Below are positions 16,133-49,700 of a stretch of DNA of 50,862 nucleotides, piece after piece. This DNA comes from a virus. The notes beneath the pieces were generated by a model. It was not told the DNA's origin and made no database searches. It saw nothing but the letters and a program-made list of their open reading frames with translations. The position numbers and the translations under genes are program-made. Within the stretch, counting starts at the first letter, position 1. Each line of letters starts with the position of its first letter. The stretch covers positions 1 to 50,862 of IMG/VR virus record IMGVR_UViG_3300013131_000061; one strand, written 5' to 3'.

Positions 16133-17839
16133 TTATGCCTGACAAGCCACGCATTCAAGGTCATTTAGATTCAACTTCTTTCTAGCGAAAGCTTGTGCAG
16201 AATTCATCGAATGTTGATAGTATAAAGTCTTAACACCCAACTGCCATGCGTCTATCAACAATTTGTTGACATCCTTAGTAGGCATGTCTGGTGAAATCAT
16301 AAGGTTCAAAGATTGAGCCTGATCAATATAATCTTGACGAATCGCCGCCTGATTGATTATTGAAGATTGATTGATTTCTGCGAAGGTTCTGAATACATCC
16401 TTCTGTTCATCAGTCAAAAACTCCAAGTGTTGGACTGATCCATCATGTTTTTTAATACTATCCCATACTTCTTTAGTATCTTTACCGATTTCAGCTAGTA
16501 ACTTTTGAAGAACGGGATTTTTGATTGTTACCTTCAATTTAGCAACGTCTTTTACATAAGCATTTGACCAAATTGGTTCGATGGATTGAGATACCTGACC
16601 CAAAATAAATGCTGATGAAGTCGTTGGTGCGATTGCATTCAATGTGACATTTCTTCGTCCATACCCTACTAAATGTTCAGGCTCTCCGAACATTTCTGCG
16701 AGTTCTTCTGAAGCTTTGTAAGACTTATCTTTGATAAGTTTGAACACCTGTACGTTCAGACGTGCTGTATCTTTACTATCGAATGGGAGATTTTTGGATT
16801 GTAAAAATGAATGCCAGCCCAAAACTCCAAGACCTAGAGCTCGTTGTCTTTTAGCAAAATTATAAGCCTTTTCTAAATAGAAGAATGCTCGTTGACCTTC
16901 TAGGGTTCCGTTGTGTCTGAGACTGTCAATTTTTTCAACAAATTCAGTAACCACAGCATCCAAGAAATAAATCATAGTTTCAACAGCATCTGTATCCTTC
17001 CATTCGTCGTAGTGTAATAAATTCATAGAAGATAAAACACACACAAATGACTCTTCTTCTGAATTATGAAGAGCAATTTCAGAACAAAGGTTTGAGTTAT
17101 GAATTTTCATATCCTTGTCCTTATAAACCTCAGGAGCCTTGTTATTCATAGTATCGGTGAACATGATATAAGGATATCCAATTTCACCTCTTCGTTGAAT
17201 TACTTTTGCCCATATTGCTCTTTTTTCATCATCTCCAGCAATCATTTCTTTCATGAACTTATCTGTCACGGTAACTGCGTGAGTCAGGTCTTGGATGGGG
17301 AATCCCTCGGTTCCAATTTCCAAGAATTCCATAATGTCAGGGTGTTCGACAGGTAGGTATGGTGAGAAACGACCTCTACGAGTTGATCCTTGTGAAATAT
17401 TATCAACAACACTTTGGAACAAATTCATAAAGTGAACTGAACCAGGTGCGTGTCCATTGTCTGTAATAGTGGCTCCACGACCACGGATATTTCCAAAATA
17501 TCCAGAAGTACCACCACCCATTTTACTCATCTCTCCGACCTCAGCTTGAGTATATAAGATTGATTCAATATTATCACCAATATTAGAACCAAAACAACTC
17601 ACAGGTAAACCTCTTTGTTTACCAAAGTTTGCCCATACAGGAGAAGACAATGAATACCATCCTTTACCCATATAATCATAAAACTTATCAGCAAATCCTT
17701 CAATTCCCAAAAGTTTTTCAGCATGATCAGCAATAACTCTGATTCGCTCCAAGGGTTGTTCACCCTCACTCAAATATCCACGACGGAGAAAAGTAATTGA
17801 CTCTTCGTTGATCCATTCGAATGGTTTTCTATTTTCCAT
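16133..17839 (-). CDS. nrdA: Class I ribonucleotide reductase, catalytic alpha subunit
   Basis: 568 residues, shorter than E. coli NrdA (761) because there is no N-terminal ATP-cone. All catalytic parts are present: C82 and C267 as the redox pair, the N250-C252-E254 set in SNLCSEI (C252 the expected thiyl residue), Y540-Y541 in TLYYQHSMN for radical transfer, and a C-terminal swinging CxxC (C563, C566). It reduces ribonucleoside diphosphates to deoxynucleotides for phage DNA synthesis together with NrdB, encoded 16 bases upstream. The start has an A-rich leader without Shine-Dalgarno sequence. A strong terminator follows the gene. The allosteric activity site is carried by NrdB instead. Confidence 0.95.
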   Translation of the reverse strand: MENRKPFEWINEESITFLRRGYLSEGEQPLERIRVIADHAEKLLGIEGFADKFYDYMGKGWYSLSSPVWANFGKQRGLPVSCFGSNIGDNIESILYTQAEVGEMSKMGGGTSGYFGNIRGRGATITDNGHAPGSVHFMNLFQSVVDNISQGSTRRGRFSPYLPVEHPDIMEFLEIGTEGFPIQDLTHAVTVTDKFMKEMIAGDDEKRAIWAKVIQRRGEIGYPYIMFTDTMNNKAPEVYKDKDMKIHNSNLCSEIALHNSEEESFVCVLSSMNLLHYDEWKDTDAVETMIYFLDAVVTEFVEKIDSLRHNGTLEGQRAFFYLEKAYNFAKRQRALGLGVLGWHSFLQSKNLPFDSKDTARLNVQVFKLIKDKSYKASEELAEMFGEPEHLVGYGRRNVTLNAIAPTTSSAFILGQVSQSIEPIWSNAYVKDVAKLKVTIKNPVLQKLLAEIGKDTKEVWDSIKKHDGSVQHLEFLTDEQKDVFRTFAEINQSSIINQAAIRQDYIDQAQSLNLMISPDMPTKDVNKLLIDAWQLGVKTLYYQHSMNSAQAFARKKLNLNDLECVACQA

Positions 17840-17855: not shown

Positions 17856-19136
17856 TTAAAATAAGTCGTTAAGTGTAATTGATTTTTGTTTTTTACTGTA
17901 ATTGATACTTCTTTTATTGAAGAAGTCGGTGTGTTTTGTTGTGAGAATTTCATCATCAAACCACTCTGTTGTTTCCAACACCTTTTTATCAACTTTGAAT
18001 ACATTTTCAATACCAATAGAATTCAAAGATAGATTGAATCTGTGTTTGATAAACTCTAAAGTTTGTTCTTTGGTAAGAAAATCTAAATCCCCCTCCTCGA
18101 AAATCCAGTTGACAACTTCAACTTCAGATTCATACGCCTCCAATGTAGCATCTACTAAGTCTTCGATAAGGTCTTTGGTCCACCAACTAGGATTTTCTTT
18201 TTTGATAAGATTTACCAAATCAAATCCGAATTCCGCATGGATGTTTTCTTCTTTGGAAGTAGCCTCAACAGCATTACTAATACCTTTCAAAACATTTTTG
18301 TGTTTGTTGAAAGCCATAATAACCAAGAATTGAGAGAAAAGGGATACGTTTTCAATAAACATAGAAAACAGGATCACGGATTCGAAATAGTCTTGGTTAT
18401 CCAAAGATTTAGAATTAGAAATGGATTTTTCCAAATATTTGATTCTTCTGCGAATAGCTGAAACTTGAAGTAAATTTTCAAATTCTTTGTTCAGTCCTAA
18501 CAATTGAATCAAATGTGAATACGCGTCAGCGTGTCTAACTTCGGACTCTGCAAATGTTGCACCGACATTTCCGATTTCTGGTTTTGGTAGTCTTTTGTAG
18601 ATATCCCCCCAAAAGGTTTTCACCGCGATTTCAATTTGAGAAATTGCCAACATGGCTCTCTGTACCGCAGTTTGTTCCTTTTCATTCAAATGAACTTTGA
18701 AGTCTTGGATGTCGGAAGTAAAATTAAACTCGGTGTGTACCCAATATGAGTGTCTGATAGCATCCACGTATTCCAACAAATCAGGATATTCGTATGGTTT
18801 CAAATTAACTCTTTTGGTAAAAATATTTGGTTGATGTTTCGAACGGTAAATAATATATTCTTTCGCAACATCGTTTAGACCATTGTCCATAAGTTTGTTT
18901 TCAACCATATCGTGAATCTCATCTACGTGAGGAAGGTGGTGTTTGTTACCTCTGAATATACTTTTTTTGGTTAGTCGTGCAATTTTTTCAGCCATTTCAA
19001 CATCTGTTTTACCAGCACTATTCATTGCCTTCAAAACCGCATTTTTGATTTTTTCAATCTCAAATACAACACGGTCACCACTTCGTTTGATAACAAAACG
19101 TTGGTCACCACCAATCATATCTATTAGATTATCCAT
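17856..19136 (-). CDS. nrdB: Class I ribonucleotide reductase beta subunit with N-terminal ATP-cone
   Basis: 426 residues: an ATP-cone at about 12-100 (VIKRSGDRVVFEIEKI ... VENKL ... AKEYIIYRSKHQ) followed by a ferritin-like beta subunit. Likely metal ligands are E169, E199 and H202 (SEVRHADAY), E262, and E297/H300 in EENIHAEFG. Y206 sits where E. coli has radical Tyr122. An ATP-cone on the beta subunit has been characterised in Leeuwenhoekiella blandensis (Flavobacteriia), where it gives dATP-dependent shut-off through beta oligomerisation. The cone on NrdB and its absence from NrdA fit that system. The sequence does not settle whether the cofactor is Fe2-tyrosyl or the Mn2 class Id type. 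It precedes nrdA in the same transcript. Confidence 0.93.
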   Translation of the reverse strand: MDNLIDMIGGDQRFVIKRSGDRVVFEIEKIKNAVLKAMNSAGKTDVEMAEKIARLTKKSIFRGNKHHLPHVDEIHDMVENKLMDNGLNDVAKEYIIYRSKHQPNIFTKRVNLKPYEYPDLLEYVDAIRHSYWVHTEFNFTSDIQDFKVHLNEKEQTAVQRAMLAISQIEIAVKTFWGDIYKRLPKPEIGNVGATFAESEVRHADAYSHLIQLLGLNKEFENLLQVSAIRRRIKYLEKSISNSKSLDNQDYFESVILFSMFIENVSLFSQFLVIMAFNKHKNVLKGISNAVEATSKEENIHAEFGFDLVNLIKKENPSWWTKDLIEDLVDATLEAYESEVEVVNWIFEEGDLDFLTKEQTLEFIKHRFNLSLNSIGIENVFKVDKKVLETTEWFDDEILTTKHTDFFNKRSINYSKKQKSITLNDLF

Positions 19137-41296: not shown

Positions 41297-41326
41297 AGGT
41301 GGGGATTTCTCCCCACCTTTTTTTTT
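41297..41326 (+). terminator. Plus-strand terminator hairpin behind the sheath gene
   Basis: Stem AGGTGGGGA / TCCCCACCT (41297-41305, 41310-41318), loop TTTC, then T8 on the plus strand. On the minus strand the same hairpin has a GAAA loop, follows the sheath stop codon and is not followed by T, so there it may act as a message stabiliser more than a terminator. Confidence 0.7.
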
Positions 41327-44300
41327 AGATATTTTCGAAAGAAGCTCCAGTCGGAGTAATCAAGAATTCAATATCAATGAATTCAAGAGCTTTCGTTGGT
41401 TTTAAGTAAATCTTACCCGACATGGTGTTTCTATCCAAGTCTTCTGGTGAGTTACTTACAGTGACACGGAAGTCATAAAGACCACGGTCTCTTCTGATTG
41501 CGTCAAGGATAGGGTTGACTGAGTCAAGGAAATCCTGACGAACCTTAGCGTCATTTTGTTCAAACAACAATCTAACCGCAACTGCCGAGATCAACTTACG
41601 TGCCTGTAGTAACAATCTTCTTACGTTGATTCTGTTAAGAGCAGTGTCAGCGATTTGAAGGGTCTTGTTACCCCAAATTACAGTGCCTACGTCAGAGAAG
41701 GTAGCGATTGGGTTAATACGACCTTGGTAAAGAGTATCTCTTTGGTCTTGTGTTAGTTTGATACGTGCCTTGACAGCATTTACCAAACCTCTTGTGTAAC
41801 CCGCAGTTGCGAACCAAGGGAATGAGATGTTATCTGTAAGAGCCAAGTTTCTACAAACCTCATTTGTTGGTGGGATGTATATTTGGGTGTTGTTTACAGT
41901 ATCTCTAACCAAGATCCATGGGTAGTAGGTTGCTGTATAGTTTGAATCAATTCCTGTTTGATCAAGTCTATCAACCGCTTGAGTTGGTGGAATAATGTTG
42001 TCCGTTTGGGTTGGTATATAAACATTACAATCAGGTGTGGTAACAATATAAATTGAATCAGCTCTTTGGAATGTAACCATATCAATCGCTTGTTCAACCA
42101 AGTTACTGTTGTTTACGTAATCAATACCTGGTGTTGCGAATACGTTGATGTTTACCGCTTCAGGGTTATTGAATGTTGCGATACCTAACAAGTAAGCGTA
42201 GTAGTCCGAGTTAGAGAATTCTGCAAAACCTTCCTGTGTTGTGGTCTTAAACGCTCCCCATCCTGTTGCTAAAGGATAACGAGTTGAGGGACACGCTCCT
42301 TTCTGCCATAAACTACCACCAATCATATATCGGTCGTCATTTGTTCTATTTTCTCTGTAGATGTCCCAACCATCAAAACCACCTTGTAACAAGAAAGAAT
42401 ATTTTCTAGCTTGGATAGTGTAGTAGGGGTTAGTAGGATTCTGAGGATCAGATTGGAAAGATGCGTCTCCACAATCAAATGCTGGTGTTCCTGCAGTAGG
42501 TCCAGTAGTAATGGTCACAACTGTCGCACCTGAGTCCATGTGGAAACCTTTAGTAACGTAATTCCAACGTAGAGCGTCAGTTTCAATACACAAGTTACTC
42601 GGAACTTGCTTTCCTTTGTATTGATAAAAATCAGGGTCATATCCAATTTGTGATGATATTCCCAAGAAAGTACGTCTTACGTTGTCCCCCGGAGAAATAA
42701 TTGGGTTAGGTCCTGCGGGTACGTTGAAAGGTGGGTTACCAACAACTTCACCCGGAAAATCATACGATGTTTTATAAACAGGATATGGTGGAGTTGCGTT
42801 TCCGTACTCACGAATTACATAACCCTCGAATCCACAAGGAAGTGCGTCGATCGGAGCTGTCTCGTTCAATTCCAGCATAATATACTTAGAATTCAACGCG
42901 TACTCCCCGTCCGCGGTACCCACTTGTACTCCAACATAGTTGTTGTTACCTGGATCCATACTACAGTTAGTGTACTTCTCTAAGTAAACTGGGTTAGCGT
43001 CAGTATCGAAGAAACTTCTAACACCAAGATCAAACGTACCATTGTTAAATGAAATGTTTTGAATTGAGATTTTTATTTGTGTGTTTGCCGTGTTACCATC
43101 CGCAATTGAAATAACTTTGAAAAGTCTATCTACTGTGGTACCACGGAGTTCAGAAACAACCCATGGAGATTCAGGACTTTGATATTTTTCAAGATAGTAA
43201 GCAATTGTATCAGTATTTGGTGAGTATCTCAGACCAGGTAAAGCTACAAAAGTAGAATTCAATCCACGGATGAGACCTTTGTTGTAACCCAAGTTTAGCA
43301 TGTTTTGGAATGTTTCCTCAACAAACAAAGGAACTTCATTTCTTGGTTTACCGAAATTAGTACCACCGAAAACTTTAGTAATATAATTTTGGTCGGAAGA
43401 GTTAAGGGACGTTGTGAACGCAAAGTCCGTACCGTCAGTGGTCATACCTGAAATGTTGAAAGTAGCGTATGGACTTGAGCTAATTCCTGAGTATATACCA
43501 CTATTATCTATTATAACATCTGTCAAACCTGATACAGTGTATTGAGGACCATCGTTAGACCCACCATATAAAGAAATTCCACGAGATCTCAGTGTAGCAA
43601 CAACAAGGTTATTCCAATCTGCGAAAGCAGTACCAGAATAACTGTATATATTACCCGTTACAGTACCTGAATAACAACCCGAACCTAAATCTTCAAAATT
43701 GTTTACAATACTATAGAAAGAATATCCTGAGTAGTTGTTACCAGTAGTTATGTCAAAATTAGAGTAATACCAAGCATCATTATTTGGTGAGGTGTAGTCG
43801 GCAACACTTTGTGAAAGTCCAGACACACCGAAAACGTTAGTTTCTGCGGTATAAACGGGTGACAAGAAATTGTAAGCCGCATCAGTCACAGTACCAAAGT
43901 AAGAAATTGAAGAACCTGAACCAACTCCACCATTATCAATCAAGTCTAATAATTGGTTATTCAAGTCATTAGAAATTGTTGTTTGTGAACCATTCAATTG
44001 AGTGTAAGGTTCTGTTAGGTTAGCGTTTATAATTGATGGAAACGCAGTTATGAATGAAACCGCAGTATCACCGGTACATCCTGAGAAATCAACTGACCAA
44101 GAAATCGGTGCTCCATTAAAACCAATTGAAGATCCGTCTACGTTAGCAATTGTGGTAATAGACCAAGAAGGTCCTGCATCATAACCAGATAAACCCAATA
44201 CTCTTGTTACGAATAGTTGGTTTGATTGTTGTAAATAAGATTTAGCGATATATGCCAACTCGTATTTTGGAATTTGTGTATTGACAAATTTCTCGGGTAA

Positions 44301-44486
44301 AGTACCTCCGAAAAATGCCTCGAATTCATCGTAGCTTGTGATGAAAATAGGTTCAAATGCTGGACCCGTGATTGTTTCACCAACCAATCCCAAAGTTGTT
44401 ACACCAACACTCTGAGATACGAAACTTAAATCTCTCTCAGAAGTGTAAACACCCGGAGAAACAAATATTTTATTTGATACTGCCAT
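41325..44486 (-). CDS. 18: Tail sheath protein, gp18-like
   Basis: 1053 residues, much longer than T4 gp18 (659). The N-terminus FVSPGVYTSERDLSFVSQSV and the C-terminal block with FSDVGTVIWGNKTLQ near residue 930, followed by NVRRLLLQARKLI, are the sheath-family hallmarks (Phage_sheath_1). The extra 400 residues lie in the middle (Gly/Ser/Asn/Tyr-rich, about 130-750) and probably form surface domains on the sheath. Contraction of this shell drives tube injection. A TATTTAT box is 35 bases upstream. The stop codon lies inside the A-tract facing the plus-strand terminator. Confidence 0.92.
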   Translation of the reverse strand: MAVSNKIFVSPGVYTSERDLSFVSQSVGVTTLGLVGETITGPAFEPIFITSYDEFEAFFGGTLPEKFVNTQIPKYELAYIAKSYLQQSNQLFVTRVLGLSGYDAGPSWSITTIANVDGSSIGFNGAPISWSVDFSGCTGDTAVSFITAFPSIINANLTEPYTQLNGSQTTISNDLNNQLLDLIDNGGVGSGSSISYFGTVTDAAYNFLSPVYTAETNVFGVSGLSQSVADYTSPNNDAWYYSNFDITTGNNYSGYSFYSIVNNFEDLGSGCYSGTVTGNIYSYSGTAFADWNNLVVATLRSRGISLYGGSNDGPQYTVSGLTDVIIDNSGIYSGISSSPYATFNISGMTTDGTDFAFTTSLNSSDQNYITKVFGGTNFGKPRNEVPLFVEETFQNMLNLGYNKGLIRGLNSTFVALPGLRYSPNTDTIAYYLEKYQSPESPWVVSELRGTTVDRLFKVISIADGNTANTQIKISIQNISFNNGTFDLGVRSFFDTDANPVYLEKYTNCSMDPGNNNYVGVQVGTADGEYALNSKYIMLELNETAPIDALPCGFEGYVIREYGNATPPYPVYKTSYDFPGEVVGNPPFNVPAGPNPIISPGDNVRRTFLGISSQIGYDPDFYQYKGKQVPSNLCIETDALRWNYVTKGFHMDSGATVVTITTGPTAGTPAFDCGDASFQSDPQNPTNPYYTIQARKYSFLLQGGFDGWDIYRENRTNDDRYMIGGSLWQKGACPSTRYPLATGWGAFKTTTQEGFAEFSNSDYYAYLLGIATFNNPEAVNINVFATPGIDYVNNSNLVEQAIDMVTFQRADSIYIVTTPDCNVYIPTQTDNIIPPTQAVDRLDQTGIDSNYTATYYPWILVRDTVNNTQIYIPPTNEVCRNLALTDNISFPWFATAGYTRGLVNAVKARIKLTQDQRDTLYQGRINPIATFSDVGTVIWGNKTLQIADTALNRINVRRLLLQARKLISAVAVRLLFEQNDAKVRQDFLDSVNPILDAIRRDRGLYDFRVTVSNSPEDLDRNTMSGKIYLKPTKALEFIDIEFLITPTGASFENI

Positions 44487-48170: not shown

Positions 48171-49700
48171 ATGAGAAATCTTAAAAAGAAGATTCATGAT
48201 ATAGAACAGAACCTTCAAAACAAACAAACCATCAAAGAAGAATCCCTTCACGAAGCCAAAAAAATTAGAGCAGAAAAACTACCTTACGGATATTCAGCAC
48301 TTCGTCAATTCATTGACCCTGAAACGATGAATATCCACTACAACAAACATTATAAAGGTTATATTAGCAAACTCAACGATGCTCTAGAAGGAAAAGACTT
48401 GGGTGATATTTCACTCGAGGAAATTATCAGAACAATCGAAAGATATTCAAAGGTTGTGAGAGACAATGCTGGTGGAGCCTTCAACCACGCGATATTTTGG
48501 AAAATGTTGTCCCCCACCGAAATGGAACCAAAAGGTGAAATCCTAAAGAAAATTGATTCGAATTTCGGGTCATTATCTGAATTCAAAAAGAAATTTGAGG
48601 ATTACGCAAAGAAAAGATTCGGTTCAGGGTGGGTATGGCTTGTTCTTACCAAAAGAGGAACTCTGAAAATTATGACAACGGCAAACCAAGACAATCCACT
48701 CATGGATGTTATCAAACAAGGTGGTTATCCACTTCTTGGTTTGGATTTATGGGAACACGCCTACTACCTCAAGTACAGAAACAAAAGGGATGAATACATC
48801 AAAAACTTTTGGAAGGTAGTGAATTGGGATTTTGTGGATAGTGAATACCAAAGAATCACCAACAAAGGTATCAAAGAAAGTAGTACAGTAAAAAAAATAT
48901 TATCAGAACAAAGAATTGCTAATCCTTGTTCAGAAAAAGATCGTGCGGTTATAAGAGAAATGTTCAATAACAATTCAGAGTTACTTGATTTGTATAGTGA
49001 TGGTATAAAAAAGATTTTATCACAAGCGTTTCCCGACAAATACTATGGAGCAGGTGAATACCAAAAAGGAACCGCACCTGGCATATACGATTTAGAAAAA
49101 CCAGGTAGATCAATTATCAACTACCTCAACACAAATTACAGTACATTTTGTCCCCTACTCAAAGATTTGAATAGGGTGTTGGAAGTTTATAATAAAAAAC
49201 CAATAGAATTTGAAGGTGTATCACCAGAAGAACAAATGTTCCAAATGAGAAGAATGCTCAAGTTCATTTCCGAACTAAAGGAAAGAATATTTGATCCAAA
49301 CGCAAGAACATTCCAAACCATATTTCAAATACTAAACGCAACATCAAACAAAGGTTCCAAAACCGAAGACATAGTTGAGAAGAAATTCAAACAAAAATTT
49401 GGTCCCGAAAATATAAAAAAAATTGGTGCTTTGGGAAGCAAAGAGGATATGATGGGGGTTGATATGAAAATTACCATTAATGGTAAAGAACATACTGCAC
49501 AGGTCAAACCCTTTAATTCAATCCAAGAAATTGACGAGATGTTCAGAATTGAAGGTACAGCGAATGTAAAAAAATATAAAACTGATTGGATGGTCTTTGT
49601 CAAAAGAGGAAGGGAGTTTGTAATCTTCGACAACCGAAATGCTCAGATAATAGACGGAACATATAATTTCCCAAAAGACTCTCTATTGTACCAATTCTAA
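48171..49700 (+). CDS. Mn-type superoxide dismutase fused to PD-(D/E)XK-like nuclease domain
   Basis: 509 residues. Residues 35-230 form an Fe/Mn superoxide dismutase: ligands H56, H106 (GGAFNHAIFW), D192 and H196 (LDLWEHAYYLKYRNKRDEY), gateway Y64, and G102/Q173 at the positions that are G77/Q146 in E. coli Mn-SodA, so Mn-type. Residues 235-385 form a linker/helical region. Residues 390-509 resemble a PD-(D/E)XK fold: E399, D431 (MGVDMKITING) and Q444-x-K446 (AQVKPF), with Lys/Gly-rich loops. The SOD would remove superoxide; the nuclease-like part may be structural or act on DNA. Joined without a stop. I know of no such fusion. Located between helicase and neck genes. Confidence 0.8.
   Translation: MRNLKKKIHDIEQNLQNKQTIKEESLHEAKKIRAEKLPYGYSALRQFIDPETMNIHYNKHYKGYISKLNDALEGKDLGDISLEEIIRTIERYSKVVRDNAGGAFNHAIFWKMLSPTEMEPKGEILKKIDSNFGSLSEFKKKFEDYAKKRFGSGWVWLVLTKRGTLKIMTTANQDNPLMDVIKQGGYPLLGLDLWEHAYYLKYRNKRDEYIKNFWKVVNWDFVDSEYQRITNKGIKESSTVKKILSEQRIANPCSEKDRAVIREMFNNNSELLDLYSDGIKKILSQAFPDKYYGAGEYQKGTAPGIYDLEKPGRSIINYLNTNYSTFCPLLKDLNRVLEVYNKKPIEFEGVSPEEQMFQMRRMLKFISELKERIFDPNARTFQTIFQILNATSNKGSKTEDIVEKKFKQKFGPENIKKIGALGSKEDMMGVDMKITINGKEHTAQVKPFNSIQEIDEMFRIEGTANVKKYKTDWMVFVKRGREFVIFDNRNAQIIDGTYNFPKDSLLYQF

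Follow-up and report, generated by a model that had tools for sequence, protein, structure and literature searches.

A phage-borne class Id ribonucleotide reductase with a conserved ATP-cone on its radical-generating subunit and a likely dATP switch

The stretch of viral DNA analysed here (IMG/VR record IMGVR_UViG_3300013131_000061, 50,862 nucleotides, referred to below as the window) carries an adjacent nrdB-nrdA pair. We consider it probable that this is a class Id ribonucleotide reductase (RNR) pair of the replication module and of a phage-borne lineage, in which an ATP-cone on NrdB provides a dATP switch of the Leeuwenhoekiella blandensis type.

Gene pair and domain layout

The genes and the parts of NrdB lie at the following positions of the window.

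17856..19136, minus strand: nrdB, class Id (NrdBi) radical-generating subunit with an N-terminal ATP-cone, 426 aa, ATG start
18831..19097, minus strand: ATP-cone domain, residues 14-102 (Pfam PF03477 and residue mapping)
18825..18842, minus strand: shortened cone-core neck, residues 99-104, 6 residues (alignment)
17988..18812, minus strand: ferritin-like core, residues 109-383, with metal ligands and class Id residues (Pfam and alignment)
16133..17839, minus strand: nrdA, class Id (NrdAi) catalytic subunit, 568 aa, C-terminal CVAC

Pfam detected both an ATP-cone (residues 14-102, E 4.9e-21) and a Ribonuc_red_sm domain (residues 109-383, E 2.4e-57) in NrdB above cut-off, whereas NrdA contains only the all-alpha and barrel domains and no cone. 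The sequence-only reading had placed the cone on NrdB instead of NrdA, as in L. blandensis, and the Pfam searches of both open reading frames and the alignment to PDB 5OLK bear this out; the motifs it had named were found at NrdB residues 15-20 (VIKRSG) and 94-99 (YIIYRS). Relatives of NrdB are encoded in 569 IMG/VR stretches and the cone is present in 80/80 of the nearest phage relatives (the best 80 of the 569, 83-100% identical), so that its presence on NrdB is not a matter of chance. The L. blandensis NrdB (5OLK) was the best solved relative in a phmmer search, with residues 13-426 aligned (E 5e-156), and was also the first match of an AlphaFold model of NrdB (mean pLDDT 73.5), followed by the class Id cores of L. 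blandensis, Aggregatibacter and F. johnsoniae. This bacterial protein likewise has an N-terminal cone, a class Id NrdBi core and a cone-less NrdA partner (eLife 2018, PMC5794259), and its nucleotide-site, interface and metal-site residues are the same as those of the window NrdB; the two proteins are 57% identical across about 392 aligned columns. The L. blandensis protein differs in being encoded on a bacterial chromosome, in its 10-residue neck, in belonging to a separate clade and in having Gln72 at the position of His75 in the window clade.

Scans of the whole window with Rfam and for tRNAs gave no matches. A tail sheath protein of 1053 aa is encoded at 41325-44486 on the minus strand; it resembles known sheath families only in its C-terminal part, starting at about residue 680-765.

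The NrdA partner and class Id identity

The nrdA gene starts 16 bases downstream of nrdB, and the two adjoin in 76/76 clade loci that hold both genes. Cones on beta subunits are found almost only where the alpha gene lies downstream of the beta gene (PMC9669993), a rule that the order of the phage genes fits. NrdA is assigned to TIGR02510 (NrdE-prime, NCBIfam) above cut-off, ends in CVACQA and, at 568 aa and cone-less, has the short form of a class Id/NrdBi partner (about 565 aa). By comparison, the NrdA of Salicola phage SCTP-2 (L165:5300-7969) has 889 aa and exceeds its relatives by roughly 320 residues, the extra length possibly being an intein or other insertion.

The six first-sphere metal ligands of the NrdBi pattern (E, E, H, E, E, H; PMC6370689) are all present in the window NrdB as E169, E199, H202, E262, E296 and H300, equivalent to L. 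blandensis E170, E200, H203, E263, E297 and H301, and are conserved in it and its 80 closest phage relatives (best 80 of 569). K173 and W176 are invariant in every sequence aligned; they correspond to L. blandensis K174, the helix-B loop lysine, and W177, the conserved Trp, the roles of which have been described (PMC6754362, PMC5794259). Further class Id residues are Y206 and T293 (L. blandensis Y207 and T294). Judged by these residues NrdB belongs to class Id, subclass NrdBi, every hallmark that could be checked being present, and a Mn2(IV,III) cofactor formed with superoxide is predicted for it. The records of Staphylococcus phages (L166, L163 and similar) give class Ia for RNRs that are NrdBi/class Id by sequence.

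The window also encodes, at 48171-49700 on the plus strand, a protein of 509 aa. Its residues 35-226 make up an Fe/Mn superoxide dismutase domain in which the metal-site motifs are intact by eye, and the tail of roughly 280 aa looks, again by eye, like a PD-(D/E)XK nuclease. The fusion is near full length in 5/9 contigs of the window clade, broken by a stop in a sixth and absent from three distant relatives. A superoxide dismutase is an odd presence in this phage, given that superoxide presumably activates its class Id RNR.

Nucleotide site and tetramer interface of the cone

In cones that bind two nucleotides, the hairpin roof supplies a Lys-Arg pair, an aromatic residue stacks on the outer base and the last helix contributes arginines (PMC11226230, PMC9110341). 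By alignment the roof pair of the window cone is K17/R18, the base-stacking residue is Y94 and the helix-4 arginine is R98, and these align with Lys7/Arg8/Tyr83/Arg87 of PcNrdD, which have been implicated in twin-nucleotide binding (PMC11226230). The earlier impression that the cone domain is intact is upheld by this match of K17, R18, Y94 and R98 to known cone sites, and nucleotide binding by the phage cone is, on these residues, very likely.

The dATP-tetramer interface and salt bridge of L. blandensis involve D73, E76, M80, K89, I92, I93 and R95 (PMC5794259, where residue 76 is printed as Asp76; the L. blandensis sequence shows Glu76). In the window NrdB these become D76, E79, M83, K92, I95, I96 and R98, giving a D76-R98 salt bridge by mapping and an interface made up of E79, M83, K92, I95 and I96. 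K17, R18, K29, D76, E79, M83, K92, Y94, I95 and R98 are identical in 80/80 nearest phages (of 569) and 80/80 bacterial homologues, and I96 is identical in all of the 80 nearest phages (best 80 of 569). Several of the interface residues are common to the PaNrdA and PcNrdD cones too and may thus be features of cones in general. Purifying selection acts on the cone in the phage clade, with a median dN/dS of about 0.09 compared with 0.05 in the core for clade-wide pairs (171 usable of 3240, restricted to pairs with unsaturated dS).

From L. blandensis, in which the Ki for dATP is 20 uM (PMC8350387), we infer nucleotide binding, tetramerisation and inhibition in the phage enzyme as follows. The phage RNR would be a two-subunit NrdAi/NrdBi enzyme encoded by the nrdB-nrdA pair of the replication module. 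With ATP in the cone, NrdB would stay dimeric and able to form an active alpha2beta2 complex. As dATP rises each cone would take up two dATPs, and the dATP-loaded cones of two NrdB dimers would then pair via helices 3 and 4 to give beta4, in which the cone would sterically prevent a productive complex. A dATP off-switch via an NrdB tetramer is likely, although a neck 4 residues shorter than in L. blandensis makes beta4 formation and inhibition by dATP less certain.

An intact cone does not guarantee inhibition, since the class I RNR cones of T4 and T. brucei bind dATP without the enzymes being inhibited (PMC3267527). With T4 as the precedent, the window cone might similarly bind nucleotides without switching the enzyme off, having been decoupled (for example by a shorter neck) so that dNTP synthesis continues in lytic growth. 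Loss of feedback is expected to benefit lytic phages (PMC6370689), and the neck has 6 rather than 10 residues across the phage clade. Against this, the interface and salt-bridge residues are conserved as strongly as the nucleotide site, and a decoupled cone would have no obvious need of purifying selection. We therefore regard a decoupled cone as unlikely and prefer the L. blandensis-type switch.

The cone-core neck

The neck, between R98 and I105, has 6 residues in the window NrdB and 10 in L. blandensis, in 80/80 bacterial cone-NrdBs examined and in the Staphylococcus and Sporosarcina phages examined. The 6-residue form was found in 80/80 phages of the window scan (best 80 of 569), in 78/79 cone-bearing loci from a scan with a Crocinitomix query, which overlaps the first in a few contigs, and in Salicola phage SCTP-2. 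Short-neck cones form a single clade in the cone tree (96/94).

The cone-core arrangement of L. blandensis is fairly rigid and its cone has been proposed to act as a steric block on the active complex (PMC8350387), and for this reason a shortening of the neck could matter. With 4 residues fewer, about one helical turn, the geometry of a dATP tetramer may differ. The AF2 monomer was set aside as a guide to cone-core geometry as its confidence at the neck is too low and the cone-core orientation in it is uninformative; the 12 A rmsd between this model and 5OLK arises from the way the domains are oriented. Rather doubtfully, it may be proposed that short-neck cone-NrdBs are a phage-specific regulatory variant in which the pairing of the cones or their clash with NrdA is altered, and whose dATP response is unlike that of L. 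blandensis. As it appears in the alignments, the shorter neck of the phage clade is one structural difference within a known kind of enzyme, cone-bearing NrdBs having been noted in viruses as early as 2018 (PMC5794259).

Related enzymes show other combinations of these features. The NrdB of Salicola phage SCTP-2 (gp427) has the cone and the 6-residue neck of the window protein and in the cone tree it joins the window clade, although it is about 47% identical, comes from a phage with Salicola as host and sits on a very long branch, which makes its position in the core tree unreliable. A search of viral contigs with it gave one weak match. Staphylococcus phages Remus, CF5 and Golestan101-M, Mammaliicoccus phage MSShimriz1 and Sporosarcina phage Lietuvens also encode an NrdBi with an N-terminal cone and, like the window, have NrdA or pieces of NrdA downstream of nrdB; their NrdBs differ in being 48-52% identical to that of the window, in the 10-residue neck and in tree position. 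A cone-only tblastn missed the Staphylococcus and Sporosarcina phage cones owing to the insensitivity of so short a query. The idea that these cones are degenerate was rejected, as the IKKRDG and ILYR/IIYR motifs are kept in the alignment. In Facklamia ignava an NrdBi also carries a cone as an on/off switch (PMC6187632), with an extra N-terminal glutaredoxin domain that the window NrdB does not have.

Phylogeny and origin

In the NrdB-core tree the window protein falls in a phage-only clade (95/97). Beside it lies a clade (98/93) with the Flavobacteriia, which form a clade of their own (99/92), and with Patescibacteria, phages of the Staphylococcus/Sporosarcina type and a group of marine phages without the cone. 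The phage and flavobacterial clades are likewise separate in the NrdA tree, and with NrdA and the NrdB core concatenated they are recovered at 100/100 and 100/99 respectively.

A flavobacterial origin of the gene had been suggested from the sequence, and recent acquisition of nrdAB from a flavobacterial host would make the pair a marker of host lineage. The closest cellular homologues are indeed from Flavobacteriia and related Bacteroidota (58-62% identical), and the window, as in Bacteroidota, has no Shine-Dalgarno signals. However, the phage genes form their own clade beside the Flavobacteriia in both the NrdB and NrdA trees, the concatenated data reject a tree in which the phages nest with part of the Flavobacteriia (AU p 0.004), and the same kind of fusion occurs in Salicola, Sporosarcina and Staphylococcus phages. 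The NrdB core alone has little power in this respect (AU p 0.12 for the nested and p 0.32 for a sister-to-Flavobacteriia placement). Such an acquisition is thus very improbable, and on the trees the RNR pair is a phage-borne lineage.

The cone tree recovers the same groups as the NrdB-core tree, which is consistent with cone and core having travelled together. A separate fusion of a cone to an NrdBi core in the phage clade, independent of the bacterial NrdBs, might be suspected from the difference in neck length, from clade-specific residues such as H75 and from the existence of cone-less NrdBi in Bacteroidota and phages. Short-neck phage cones and bacterial cones nevertheless group together (94/84, cone tree), matching the core tree, and the position and order of the fusion are the same, so that we give this little credence and retain the common history of cone and core.

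The cone-less NrdBi of marine phages (loci L187-L248) nest among cone-bearing NrdBs in the NrdB-core tree (87/83), which suggests loss of the cone in a phage lineage, although the concatenated tree does not place them. Cone-bearing NrdBi were also seen in small Patescibacteria genomes (L083, L099, L137, L139, L335). In the three checked (L083, L099, L139) it is the sole NrdB match in a search limited to NrdB; in a 2018 paper all species with cone-NrdBs also carried other RNRs (PMC5794259).

Host

The cone on NrdB had also been read as a hint of host lineage, a reading that fails because the same fusion occurs in Salicola, Sporosarcina and Staphylococcus phages and the NrdB of Flavobacterium phage vB_FspM_immuto (Immutovirus) has no cone. 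A host reading from the RNR tree was dropped, the phage clade being separate from the Flavobacteriia.

Shine-Dalgarno motifs are known to be missing in Bacteroidetes (PMC6847099). Motifs of this kind were found at 2/27 ORFs of the window, 3/50 of a 171-kb relative and 3/132 in other clade loci. Corresponding figures were 1/49 for Flavobacteriia and 0/21 for immuto, but Patescibacteria loci were likewise devoid of the motifs (0/25). The motifs were common in a Microcystis phage (8/23) and, unlike in the window, in the Firmicutes-type phages of Staphylococcus, Mammaliicoccus and Sporosarcina (19/32). The replication module of the window is syntenic with that of immuto, the order in both being ssb, recombinase, exonuclease, DnaB helicase, nrdB and nrdA; the immuto NrdB (open frame of 332 aa) is 34% identical to that of the window. 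Baseplate and helicase proteins of the window are 25-28% identical to those of immuto, the Microcystis phage and an uncultured jumbo phage. The Bacteroidetes -33/-7 promoter motif had 3 matches in the window, with no excess over shuffles, and A-richness at -3/-6 was rejected as a host signal as it does not discriminate. The lack of Shine-Dalgarno signals and the immuto-like gene order make a host in Bacteroidota probable.

Implications for phage RNR regulation

Marine Flavobacteriia and some viruses were already known to place a cone on the radical-generating subunit, and the phage enzyme is a well-preserved branch of this layout. Escape from dATP feedback, or the need for a compact genome, has been proposed as the reason why viruses shed the ATP-cone (PMC6370689, PMC9669993). 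In contrast, the radical subunit of a large clade of uncultured phages retains a cone that is apparently intact and subject to purifying selection. If the short-neck form is a regulatory variant, it may form a different oligomer, or be inhibited less or not at all, as would suit DNA synthesis in lytic growth. As short-neck, long-neck and cone-less phage NrdBi coexist, and the cone sits on a subunit without the specificity site, the existence of a dATP off-switch in a lytic phage becomes testable.
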